Source of the DNA: a virus
DNA: 34,057 nucleotides
Virus record (IMG/VR): IMGVR_UViG_3300017991_000265
Span: 1-34,057 of that record
Reading direction: 5' to 3' (one strand)
Shown: one piece after another, positions 21,981 through 26,186 of the stretch
How the letters are laid out: each line of letters opens with the position of its first letter
How positions within the stretch are numbered: position 1 is the stretch's first letter
Position numbers and translations under genes: made by a program
The notes under the pieces: model-generated
Databases searched by the model: none
What the model saw: the letters and a program-made list of their open reading frames with translations, nothing else
What the model was told of the DNA's origin: nothing

Positions 21981-23726
21981 CTAGGTTGCCTCCACCGTTT
22001 GCGTGAGAGCCGCGAGCGTCGCGCGACGATTGTCCGTGAGCTCCGAGCGGATCCCTTGCCGGAGTTTTTGGATCTGCGGATCGCTGGCACTCCCGCCGGA
22101 GACGGAGAGATCGATCTTGCTTTGAAAGACGATCCCGCCGCGAGGGATCGCCGCGCCCCCCGTGCGTGGTGCGGTCACCGCGGAAGGGATCGCCGCGCGT
22201 GCAGTTTGCGCGAAACGCTCCGCGGATCGCATCGCCTCCGCAGGATCAAACATACCGGCGATCAAGGGCTTGCCGATCTCTTCCCTCGCCAAGCCGGACG
22301 GGCTCTTGATCCGGAGTAACTTTTTCCCCGCGTTCACCGCGTCTTTCGCTACGTTTTTGACCGCTTCCGCCACCGCGGCCGCGCCGTTTTTGATCCCCTC
22401 CACGAGCCCATCGATCAGCGCTTCGGCAAGCTCCACGGCCGCTGCAAACCAGTCCGGTCCGAAGCCTAGGATCTCTCCGATGATCCCAACGATCGCGCTA
22501 ACGATCGCGGCTCCCGCTTGGGAGAAACCTTCCGGGACGTCTTCCACGAAGAAGCGGACGATCATCGCCCCCACTTGAGAGAAGAATTCCGCGATCGGTC
22601 CCGTGCTCTCTCCGGAGAAGAAGGTAACGATCGACTTCCCGAGAGAGTCGAGAGCGTTTGCGGCAAGGTGAACGGCTTTCTCCCAATCACCTTTCTTGAT
22701 CGCGTCCGTGATATCCGTGATCGCCTTGACTACACGCCGCGCGGATCCCGGCCCGAAGAGCTTGTCCAAGAAGTGACCGATCACGCTATCGCCACCCTTG
22801 AAAAGCGAGATCAGATCGTCCACGAGCAAGATCAGGATCGCGATCTTGAGCGCGGGCATGAGAGCCGCGCGCCCAAGCTTGAGAAGCGCCATTCCAAACT
22901 TCCCGATCGCGAGCTTCGCGAGCACGCCACCGAGCACCACGAGCGCGGCTTGGAGAGTGTTCGTCCCTTCGAAGGTGCGAGAGAACCACGCCACGAGCTT
23001 GGAAAGCCCAAGCGTTAGCTGATTCAAGATCGGCAAGAGCGCCACGGCGATCCGGCTCTTGAGGCTCGTGGTAGCAATGTCGAATTCCGCAAAGCGATCT
23101 TGCGCCGCTTCGGCAAGGGGGATCAGATCCTTTGAGAGTCCGCCCCCGAAGCGCTCGAGAGCCGCTAGCGCTTCGTCTAGCCCTTGCTCCCCCTTGGCGA
23201 AGAGAGGAAGAAGCTCCGCGCCGCTCCGCCCCATGAGTTGTTGAGCCAGTGCCACGCGCTCCGTGGAATTCTCCAAGCCTCCGAGGGAGAGCCCCACTTC
23301 TCGCATGAGCTGATCGCCGGTCTTGAGGTTTCCGTTTGCGTCTTTGATATCGACGCCCAACATTCGGAAACCGTCCGCGGCTTGCTTCGATCCCTGATCA
23401 GCAAGAAGCGTGTTCTTTTGGAGAACACGCATAGACTGGTTAAACTTGGTCGTTTCGACGCCAGCGAAACCGGCCGCGGCTTGCCACGCTTGGAGTTGTG
23501 TGGACGAGATCCCGAGTTGCGTTGCCGTCTTCCCAAGAGAGTCTCCGGCGTCCACGATATCCGTGACGAAGTTTTTGATCCCCCGGGCAACCACGCCAGC
23601 GCCTAGCACCACGCCAAACGATCGGAGCCCACCAACGATCCCGGCGATCCCCTTGTCCGCGGCTTTCATACCGCGCTGATCGAATTCGAAACCGAAACGG
23701 GCTAGGATCTCTCGGAGCGCTGGCAT
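21981..23726 (-). CDS. Tail tape measure protein
   Basis: 581 residues, the longest complete tail gene here, placed after the chaperones as usual. N-terminal coil region with FDQRGMKAADKGIAGIVGGLRS and QLGISSTQLQAWQAAAGFAGV, the standard beginning of many tape measures. Several hydrophobic helices follow in the middle (ALVVLGGVLAKLAIGKFGMAL, PALKIAILILLVDDLISLF, AIVSAIVGIIGEILGFG). The C-terminus has LRIKSPSGLAREEIGKPLI, a frequent tape-measure signature. At about 0.15 nm per residue it would give a tail near 87 nm. No lysozyme-like domain is evident. It sits 2 bases downstream of the chaperone fusion's stop. Confidence 0.88.
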   Translation of the reverse strand: MPALREILARFGFEFDQRGMKAADKGIAGIVGGLRSFGVVLGAGVVARGIKNFVTDIVDAGDSLGKTATQLGISSTQLQAWQAAAGFAGVETTKFNQSMRVLQKNTLLADQGSKQAADGFRMLGVDIKDANGNLKTGDQLMREVGLSLGGLENSTERVALAQQLMGRSGAELLPLFAKGEQGLDEALAALERFGGGLSKDLIPLAEAAQDRFAEFDIATTSLKSRIAVALLPILNQLTLGLSKLVAWFSRTFEGTNTLQAALVVLGGVLAKLAIGKFGMALLKLGRAALMPALKIAILILLVDDLISLFKGGDSVIGHFLDKLFGPGSARRVVKAITDITDAIKKGDWEKAVHLAANALDSLGKSIVTFFSGESTGPIAEFFSQVGAMIVRFFVEDVPEGFSQAGAAIVSAIVGIIGEILGFGPDWFAAAVELAEALIDGLVEGIKNGAAAVAEAVKNVAKDAVNAGKKLLRIKSPSGLAREEIGKPLIAGMFDPAEAMRSAERFAQTARAAIPSAVTAPRTGGAAIPRGGIVFQSKIDLSVSGGSASDPQIQKLRQGIRSELTDNRRATLAALTQTVEAT

Positions 23727-23728
23727 CG

Positions 23729-24378
23729 TTACCTCTCGGGGGACGTTGCACGCCTATCGAGATCGTCGAGAATGGCTAGCACGTCCAGAGCATCATACAG
23801 ATCGCAAAGACTCCACTTCGTTTCGATATCGATCAGGGTATCGCAGAACCGGGGCGAGCTTGCGACGCGCCAGATCGCCCAGTCGTTTCGTAAGTGTTCG
23901 GGGATGGGGACGGAGACGATCCCCTTTCGGCCGGTTTCGAAACCCGGAGAGCGGCGGCGAGATCCTTCGCTTCGCTCCCGAGCCCGGAGAAAAAACTCGA
24001 ATAGTTGACCTCCACCGCGAAGCGGAGCCATTCCACGAGCTCCACGTAAGCTCCGGCGAAGTGCAGATCGAAAACGCCTTCCGCGCCCAACGGGATCGAC
24101 TTGTCTTGATACTCTCCGCCGGAGACTTCCGTGTGCTCCGCGAAAGCGTCCACGAAGAAGTCGTATTCCGTCTCTGAGAGCGCCTCCGCGAGTCCGGTGA
24201 TCAACCGGCCGATCGTCTCCGTGTCGAGACTCTCCGCCGCGCTCACCGCGTCCCCGATAGGTTTCCCCAAGAGCTTCCCGAGGCGGACGAGCACCCGTCC
24301 GCCTTGCTTCGCCCCGAATTGCCGAACCGCGTAGGTGTAACCACGCGATCCGAGCTTCTTTTTCTCCGTCTTGATCAT
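23729..24378 (-). CDS. Tail assembly chaperone, -1 frameshift (GT-like) fusion product
   Basis: Read in zero frame from 24378 to 23989 and then in the -1 frame to TAA at 23731-23729, giving 130 + 86 = 216 residues. The extension holds IPEHLRNDWAIWRVASSPRF, then IETKWSLCDLYDALDVLAILDDL, which looks like the T-part of tail chaperones ('W-x-I-W-R-l' and 'l-x-D-x-n-x-l-D'). The -1 frame has no well-placed start of its own and overlaps G by more than 100 bases, which also favours frameshift expression. In lambda, the G/GT ratio controls tail assembly. Confidence 0.75.
23833..24378 (-). CDS. Tail assembly chaperone, short (gpG-like) product
   Basis: 181 residues when read without frameshift. It starts MIKTEKKKLGSRGYTYAVRQ and has GKLLGKPIGDAVSAAESLD, AEALSETEYDFFVDAFAEHT and FAGAYVELVEWLRFAVEVNY, the usual shape of contractile-tail chaperones. 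After the slippery codons (residues 129-130) the zero-frame tail is low-complexity (SKPAERGSSPSPSPN), so most of the chaperone fold lies before the shift. Lies between tube and tape measure genes, where lambda-like G/T chaperones are expected; it probably binds the tape measure. Confidence 0.8.
   Translation of the reverse strand: MIKTEKKKLGSRGYTYAVRQFGAKQGGRVLVRLGKLLGKPIGDAVSAAESLDTETIGRLITGLAEALSETEYDFFVDAFAEHTEVSGGEYQDKSIPLGAEGVFDLHFAGAYVELVEWLRFAVEVNYSSFFSGLGSEAKDLAAALRVSKPAERGSSPSPSPNTYETTGRSGASQARPGSAIP
23989..24013 (-). promoter_or_regulatory. Programmed -1 frameshift site with upstream Shine-Dalgarno-like element
   Basis: On the - strand the heptamer T TTT TTC lies at 23995-23989, in register with the G frame (codons TTT TTC). 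Re-pairing in -1 frame gives TTT TTT, allowed for both tRNAs. The sequence GGAGGT lies at 24013-24008, exactly 12 bases upstream. A Shine-Dalgarno-like element 10-14 bases before the slip site is what stimulates the bacterial dnaX -1 frameshift. Confidence 0.8.
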
Positions 24379-24412: not shown

Positions 24413-24844
24413 CTAGTTGCTTCCGTCGAAGCGCTCGAGGCTCGCACAACGGAGCGTCCACTCGCGAGCCGTGGGCTCCCGATCGAAGCTCACGTTTGGA
24501 GGCTTGGAGATCCAAGACTCCGCCGCGGCGAAGAGCGCGGTCCCCTGGCGATCCCTCGCGAGGAAAGGACCCACTCCCGCGCCGTTGCCCGCGAGACGAT
24601 CGATATTGCTGAGAGCCGAAAGAAGCGCGTTGCCCGTGCTTGACTGCATGAGCAAGATCGTGATCGTCGCGCGGCGATCGTTCGTCTTGCTTCGGGTGAC
24701 CTCTCCGTCCGTCCCCACTTTGTCCACGAAGTCGTCCGCCTCTTGTTCGATCCGGAGAAACTCCCCGTCATCGAAACCCGAGTCGATCGGGATGCCCGCG
24801 ATCGATACGGAAACCTCGTTTGCATCGTATACCTTGAAACCCAT
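24413..24844 (-). CDS. Tail tube protein (DUF3277-like)
   Basis: 143 residues. The order of elements VSVSIAGIPIDSGFDDGEFL, IEQEADDFVDKVGTDGEVTR, RRATITILLMQSSTGNALLS and FAAAESWISKPPNVSFDREP with final EWTLRCASLERF is the pattern of DUF3277-type tube proteins, which form the inner tube below the DUF3383 sheath gene. It lies right between sheath and chaperone genes, as expected. No ambiguity in start (ATG 24844). Highly expressed structural protein in the virion. Confidence 0.9.
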   Translation of the reverse strand: MGFKVYDANEVSVSIAGIPIDSGFDDGEFLRIEQEADDFVDKVGTDGEVTRSKTNDRRATITILLMQSSTGNALLSALSNIDRLAGNGAGVGPFLARDRQGTALFAAAESWISKPPNVSFDREPTAREWTLRCASLERFDGSN

Positions 24845-24872: not shown

Positions 24873-26186
24873 TCAAACCGAGAGCACGCCCGTGATCACG
24901 AGCTTGTGGATCGCCCCGGCTAGAGTGGCTTGGAAGGTGACGTCCGGGAGGATCCGGTTTGCTTTGTCCGCCGTGTCGATATCCGCCACCTTTGGAGCGG
25001 TCACCGTGGGGGCGGGATCCGCGGCAAGCGCCCCCGCCGTGATCCCCTGATTCAATTGTGCGAGGATCTCCGCACGCATGAGATCCACGCCGCCGTCCGT
25101 GAAAGGGATCTTGGCATTGTTCACGAGCACGCCGAAGATCCGTTCCTTGATCCGAGCGTCGAGCCAATCGATCGTCCGGGTGATATCGATGTACTCCCCG
25201 GACGCGGTGATCCCGTAGCTCGTGACGTTCACGCCAGCGATCCGCGTGTAGTGATTCCCACCCTTGGACTCGATCACGGAGGCTTGCCCGCCCGTGAGAT
25301 TCCCGTCCACCGTGACTCCCGCGAGCGTCTTGTAAGCCCACGTGCTCGAGCCGGGATCGGAAGGGAGACGATTGCCCGCCCACGCCGCGCCGCTCCACGA
25401 CAAGAGCGAGGCTTGGGAGTAGAGGATCGCGGTCCGTGCATAGGCGGCCGCTTGGAGATTGCTCATCACGTCATCCGTGACGCCAATGTCCACCACTTCG
25501 GAGTCCGTGGTGTTACAGAGGAAGATCTTTTTTCGCGCCTCGATCCACGCCGCGGCCGCCTCGATCTCCGCCTTGGAATTGGAGTCCAAAACGAGCGCGT
25601 ACCACCCATCCGGATCGGCACCTTCGATCGCGGCGAGGTCCGTTGCGATCCCGGGATCCACCGTCACGTCTTCGATCGTGAAGTTGTCCGGTTCGTCGAA
25701 GCCTTCGAAGTCCACGAGCGCTCCGGCCGTGTCCGTGGTCACCGTCACGTGCGTTGTGTCGTCCGTCGCGGTGACGGACGCGATCGCGTCGATCAAGGCT
25801 TGGAGCGCCGTAACCACGGACGCCACGGAGGCGGCCGCGGGGACCGTGTATTGAATCGCCGTGCCGTCCACGTCGAATTCGTACACATAATCTTCCGTGA
25901 CGTTGATCGGAGTGATCCGAATGATCTGGGTGAAAGCGAGCGTGCGCTTGCCCACCGCGACTTTGTTGGGCTTCGGATTCTGGGAGAGGATCTTGGTGGC
26001 GATCAGCACGGCGGGATCGGTCGTGGCGAAGCCCGCGTCCGTCATCTCCGTTAGCGTGGAGAAGTACCGCACGACGGACGCGAAAGCCGTGTGGACTCTG
26101 GCGATCAGCGGAGTGCCGAAACCCAAGCGGCTCGGAGTCGTGGTCTGTGCAGTGATCGTGACGTTGACAATATCGGAGAGACTCAT
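24873..26186 (-). CDS. Contractile tail sheath protein (DUF3383-like)
   Basis: 437 residues from ATG 26186. The N-terminus SLSDIVNVTITAQTTTPSRLGFG is followed by LTEMTDAGFATTDPAVLIATKI and LSQNPKPNKVAVGKR, the typical opening of DUF3383 sheaths. A surface domain rich in Thr/Val follows (residues 85-180, with TATDDTTHVTVTTDTAG). Then WYALVLDSNSKAEIEAAAAW, KTLAGVTVDGNLTGGQASVIE and GEYIDITRTIDWLDARIKER, and the C-terminal handshake strand region. This gene establishes that the virion has a contractile tail. The middle domain is probably an exposed decoration of the sheath. Confidence 0.93.
   Translation of the reverse strand: MSLSDIVNVTITAQTTTPSRLGFGTPLIARVHTAFASVVRYFSTLTEMTDAGFATTDPAVLIATKILSQNPKPNKVAVGKRTLAFTQIIRITPINVTEDYVYEFDVDGTAIQYTVPAAASVASVVTALQALIDAIASVTATDDTTHVTVTTDTAGALVDFEGFDEPDNFTIEDVTVDPGIATDLAAIEGADPDGWYALVLDSNSKAEIEAAAAWIEARKKIFLCNTTDSEVVDIGVTDDVMSNLQAAAYARTAILYSQASLLSWSGAAWAGNRLPSDPGSSTWAYKTLAGVTVDGNLTGGQASVIESKGGNHYTRIAGVNVTSYGITASGEYIDITRTIDWLDARIKERIFGVLVNNAKIPFTDGGVDLMRAEILAQLNQGITAGALAADPAPTVTAPKVADIDTADKANRILPDVTFQATLAGAIHKLVITGVLSV

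Follow-up and report, generated by a model that had tools for sequence, protein, structure and literature searches.

Genomic context of the tail assembly chaperone gene

We analysed the entire IMG/VR virus record IMGVR_UViG_3300017991_000265 (34,057 bases; hereafter the window), the minus strand of which carries the structural gene cluster of a contractile-tail phage. The cluster starts with the genes for the portal, head morphogenesis, head protease and major head proteins. Further along the same strand follow a tail sheath protein (24873-26186; DUF3383, PF11863; phrog_205, E 2.8e-94), a KPP10_Orf10 structural protein in the tail-tube position (24413-24844; PF11681, 41.9 bits versus a cut-off of 25), the tail assembly chaperone (23833-24378) and the tape measure protein (21981-23726, 581 amino acids; phrog_8125 and others). 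A previous reading of the window, made from the sequence only, had called the gene between the tail tube and the tape measure genes a tail chaperone gene. This assignment is borne out by the family matches of the open reading frame: its zero-frame product of 181 amino acids is a G-like protein of the Phage_TAC_15 family (PF21822, 51.2 bits versus a cut-off of 22), and a second match is to phrog_1613, tail assembly chaperone (E 7.5e-16).

Slippery heptamer and -1 frame

Around the proposed slip site, the minus strand reads ...GTG GAG GTC AAC TAT TCG AGT TTT TTC TCC... The sequence-only reading had placed the heptamer T TTT TTC (23989-23995) in the right register for a -1 frameshift and had the -1 frame run to a stop just before the tape measure gene, and we could confirm both claims. 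Counted from the ATG at 24378, the distance of 24378-23994 = 384 = 3 x 128 nucleotides makes TTT and TTC codons 129 and 130, in agreement with the X XXY YYZ register. The -1 frame stays open as far as a TAA at 23731-23729, two bases before the ATG of the tape measure gene at 23726 (23729-24031 in the list of open reading frames). The -1 frame extension past the heptamer comprises 86 codons plus the TAA (23729-23989), such that the predicted product is a fusion of 216 amino acids with the slip, compared to 181 without it. The zero frame runs on for another 51 codons past the slip site (23988-23833) and encodes a Ser/Pro-rich tail. Thus, the two products would bear different tails, and neither would be a simple extension of the other.

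The conserved, T-like part of the extension (DWAIWR...LDDLDRR, 23750-23884) matches phrog_4625, a family of unknown function, with an E value of 7e-5. With regard to the earlier suggestion that W-IWR is a feature of T-type tail chaperones, DWAIWR is indeed present and conserved in the clade, but we found no evidence that it is a general mark of T-type proteins. Within the otherwise variable linker of the -1 frame, the motif SPGF (codons at 23939-23950) is nearly invariant in the window and 14 relatives, and its DNA may double as the 3' arm of a hairpin.

Conservation of the frameshift in relatives

Relatives of the window were collected by a search with the N-terminus of the tape measure protein, which avoids the frameshift site. 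This search yielded 20 contigs, a few of them nearly identical. An in-register T TTT TTA/C/G was found at the same place in all 20 contigs, the run consisting in every case of six T followed by A, C or G, and the -1 frame ended no more than about 30 nt from the start of the tape measure gene (20/20). The alignment revealed that the -1 domain (W-IWR ... DLYDAHDVxDxLEELE) is kept in most of these contigs. Past the zero-frame stop, the differences between relatives amounted to 0.33, 0.26 and 0.58 at positions 1, 2 and 3 of the -1 frame codons, respectively, and are thus concentrated at third positions. In 12 of 26 representatives, no ATG, GTG or TTG precedes the T-like part in the -1 frame, which leaves frameshifting as the only evident way for these phages to make the second domain. 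The window does have an upstream ATG in the -1 frame, at 24031, 36 nt before the heptamer and with an SD-like match of -5.6 kcal/mol.

As tblastn searches against isolated phages with either the chaperone or the -1 domain gave no match, the sheath protein was used to reach isolated relatives. In this way, Felix O1-type phages were found to carry T TTT TTC at the same site, with a -1 product that matches phrog_4963, 'tail assembly chaperone' (E 5e-55). A scan of bacterial genomes with the -1 domain gave no match, and later viral scans added no further independent lineage. The canonical -1 frameshift signal proposed in the sequence-only reading is thereby backed by register, heptamer and -1 product in 20/20 relatives and the Felix O1-type phages. 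On these comparisons, we consider it near certain that the tail assembly chaperone gene is subject to a programmed -1 frameshift. This part of our reading is the ordinary -1 frameshifting of tail chaperones, as it was proposed before for related families.

An SD-like element upstream of the heptamer

The window carries the Shine-Dalgarno (SD)-like sequence GGAGGT at 24008-24013, within the coding sequence and, as previously claimed, exactly 12 bases before the heptamer (spacer at 23996-24007). The window has 5 copies of TTTTTTC, against 2.8 expected, and 16 of GGAGGT, against 19.3 expected, such that neither is remarkable alone; the spaced combination GGAGGT-N12-TTTTTTC occurs once, and in 0 of 100 shuffles. 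Among the tape-measure-linked contigs, GAGGY was found exactly 12 nt upstream in 15 of 20, and as GGAGGY in 8 of those 15. L009 carries GAGGT. GGAGGC is present in 14/16 Felix O1-type contigs, typing phage 15 and Pectobacterium phage Arno18. The element is absent in L052, L053, the Erwinia-phage type (L016, L034, L035), ctsHD2 (L012) and MII_001 (L013); L055 and L018 have AAGGT in its place, and L054 has AAGGC at 15 nt from the heptamer. Since it is missing or misplaced in several lineages, the element is not required in the family and has to be regarded as a variable accessory. A natural spacing variant is found in L046 2231 (same contig as L008 2878), where GAGG lies just 6 nt from the heptamer and the chaperone is two codons shorter at the SD-like site.

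Because the element encodes E-V or E-A, coding might account for its sequence, and we therefore performed a synonymous recoding test. For the synonymous recoding, each codon was drawn, conditional on the base that follows it, from those used in neighbouring genes of the contig concerned, and pairing was scored with CACCUCCU, taken as the anti-SD. In the 26 representatives, real anti-SD pairing was stronger than that of the recoded genes for 8-mers that end 7-14 nt upstream of the heptamer, with z reaching about -7 against a codon usage taken from a few neighbouring genes, and no |z| > 2 was found at the remaining distances from 0 to 45 nt before the heptamer. Clustering at 60% identity lessens and does not remove shared ancestry among the relatives; with one sequence for each of the 16 clusters, the pairing observed at the site was attained by 0 of 3000 recodings. 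In the window alone, an equal or better anti-SD match was obtained in about 20% of the draws (p about 0.2, not significant), so that the claim for the SD-like element rests on the relatives; L042, L049 and L055 taken individually gave no sign of selection on the element either.

The choice of glutamate codons is in line with these results. Before codons starting with G, the structural genes of the window use 28 GAG versus 75 GAA, and the corresponding use of GAG is 0/12 in L040 and 7/54 in L015; GAG is nonetheless used at the SD-like site. Multiplied over eight cluster representatives, the codon probabilities give about 4e-4. As an observation of its own, the avoidance of GAG before G-starting codons in the minus-strand structural reading frames of the window would fit a host that initiates translation by SD pairing and in which SD-like sequences within genes are avoided.

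The best surviving alternative is that the frameshift at T TTT TTC is an ordinary one and that GGAGGT is a functionless by-product of coding for the conserved V-E-[VA]-N. Such an explanation would fit the match in the window, which is not unusual for its protein, the preservation of E-[VA]-N at the protein level and the several lineages that appear to frameshift without the element. However, it does not account for the fact that the protein-preserving null is exceeded, and exceeded at the SD-like site only, nor for the retention of GAG in spite of a strong preference for GAA-G (L040, L015, L028, L032). In addition, GGAGG is kept in Felix O1-type phages amid leucine and alanine codons that vary around the site. 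We consider the by-product explanation unlikely, and stimulation of the frameshift by the SD-like element probable. The dnaX-like SD stimulator postulated in the sequence-only reading is therefore supported by the synonymous-codon test over the relatives, but not by the window alone.

A possible downstream hairpin

A possible hairpin (23940-23985) begins 3 nt past the heptamer. The 50 nt after the heptamer have a folding energy of -23.4 kcal/mol in the window, with a z of only -1.0 versus shuffles, and the mean folding z of the same stretch in the 26 representatives is -0.85, i.e. slightly better than the shuffles. In an arm-swap test on 15 clade members with S/A-PGF in the -1 frame, the stretch following the heptamer paired better with the motif region of its own sequence than with that of other phages (p 0.0012); when each cluster was represented by a single sequence, the median p was 0.04, with some choices of sequences reaching 0.27. 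RNAalifold on a MAFFT alignment returned no pairs and hence no consensus structure. Taken together, folding energies and arm-swap test are no more than suggestive of a downstream hairpin, which we regard as possible.

Proposed mechanism

We propose that the chaperone gene of this myophage contains a -1 frameshift signal with an upstream SD-like booster, and assign a probability of roughly 0.77 to this explanation as a whole. According to this proposal, most ribosomes would read the zero frame and produce the chaperone of 181 amino acids, and a minority would slip back by one base, from TTT TTC in the P and A sites to TTT TTT, and produce the fusion of 216 amino acids with the T-like C-terminal domain. 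As the conservation of the element suggests, GGAGGT would raise slippage, as in dnaX, by pairing with the 16S rRNA anti-SD of the ribosome during elongation, and a hairpin just downstream might possibly contribute. By analogy with lambda, the two products, made in a set ratio, would bind the tape measure protein and recruit the tail-tube subunits.

In a different scenario, the SD-like element would not act on the choice of frame and would set the speed of translation, e.g. by a pause that aids folding of the nascent chaperone. Pausing of ribosomes at internal SD-like sequences has been reported, as cited in PMC4066793. A pause for folding would, however, not need a fixed distance, and the element keeps one fixed distance to the slip site, which lies within the range of 9-14 nt quoted for -1 stimulation in PMC5009743. 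We therefore regard a role in folding as improbable.

The change of frame might also be due to transcriptional slippage on the T run, to a sequencing error or to a broken gene. A run of six T does exist, but six bases are short for transcriptional slippage. Moreover, the run is always six T long and in the X XXY YYZ register in 20/20 contigs, followed by A, C or G, and both frames remain open; sequencing error is excluded by the occurrence of the same change of frame in independent contigs. Altogether, this leaves very little room for such explanations. Least likely of all is a separate synthesis of the T-like domain by re-initiation or from an internal start such as the ATG at 24031 with its SD-like match, since almost half of the representatives (12/26) have no start codon in the -1 frame, GGAGGT lies downstream of this ATG and the in-register heptamer is invariant.

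Going beyond the window, we tentatively suggest, at somewhat less than even odds, that an internal SD at a constant distance of 12 nt tunes the chaperone ratio in a broad group of contractile-tail phages, namely this clade and the Felix O1-type phages, and that this SD is gained or lost between lineages and in some of them joined or replaced by a downstream hairpin. The strength of pairing to 16S rRNA would then be an evolvable setting of tail assembly. Frameshifting in tail chaperone genes is widespread, and it is less clear what sets its level. If an internal SD sets this level in Felix O1-type phages, the effect is directly testable in E. coli, and it is mainly for this reason that we consider the finding to be of moderate interest. 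If true, phage assembly would be added to dnaX and IS elements as a setting of SD-stimulated -1 frameshifting, and the finding would aid gene finders in joining two halves that are often annotated as separate hypothetical proteins.

Comparison with known systems

A -1 frameshift in the chaperone gene was argued for in Vandenendeviridae and Andersonviridae in late 2025 (PMC12846349), after earlier mentions for Moogle and Mijalis (PMC4319497, PMC5543628). Phages of these families (Adele, Moogle, Mijalis) have, like the window, a homologous sheath, the chaperone just before the tape measure, a -1 product and, towards the end of the first frame, a poly-T slip site. The motif is given as GTTTTT in PMC12846349, and an SD element is not reported there. 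PAK_P1-type phages (PAK_P1, Bitten, P3_CHA; L010 7739, L011, L014) differ from the window in that their zero frame reads GTT TTT and does not conform to X XXY YYZ, and no SD-like element was found at the homologous place in L010, L011 and L014. The -1 frame of these phages is open nonetheless, and a tetramer-type slip (T TTT) is possible.

In lambda, a short chaperone, G, is accompanied by the longer -1 fusion GT, which links tape measure and tail tube (PMC5009743). Gene order and logic are shared with the locus described here, a likeness for which we claim no sequence homology. In contrast to the window, lambda slips at G GGA AAG, has no SD-like match nearby (best -2.5 kcal/mol) and stops in the zero frame 5 codons past the slip, compared to 51 in the window. 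In most of the clade, this tail is about 23-52 codons long. In the E/E' genes of phage P2 (L060 1679), which have a T TTT TTG site, TAAGGTGG ends just 4 nt upstream, outside the 9-14 nt mentioned above. HK97 could not serve for comparison, since an A/T-type heptamer was not found at the slip in its annotated frameshift gene.

For SD-stimulated -1 frameshifting, PMC5009743 reports the SD at 9-14 nt upstream of the slip site. E. coli dnaX has its SD-like sequence within this range of the -1 heptamer according to the same source, and the window has it at 12 nt. By contrast, the dnaX heptamer is A AAA AAG, a defined stem-loop follows downstream (PMC3711429) and the gene is a different one. The likeness of the window to dnaX lies in mechanism, not descent. 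An upstream SD is borne by an estimated 56% of IS elements (PMC5009743), and U_UUU_UUC is among the IS-element frameshift motifs, a set chosen for slipping at > 0.1% in E. coli in the absence of stimulators (PMC4066793). IS elements thus share both the upstream SD and U_UUU_UUC with the window, but in transposase genes and not in phage tail genes. Searches of the open-licence literature did not turn up any account of an SD stimulator in a tail chaperone gene; ribosome-binding-site strength is already among the features from which PRFect predicts such sites, and the idea as such is therefore present in the field. The slip signal in the window is of a known kind, and the new part is the SD-like element in a tail chaperone gene.
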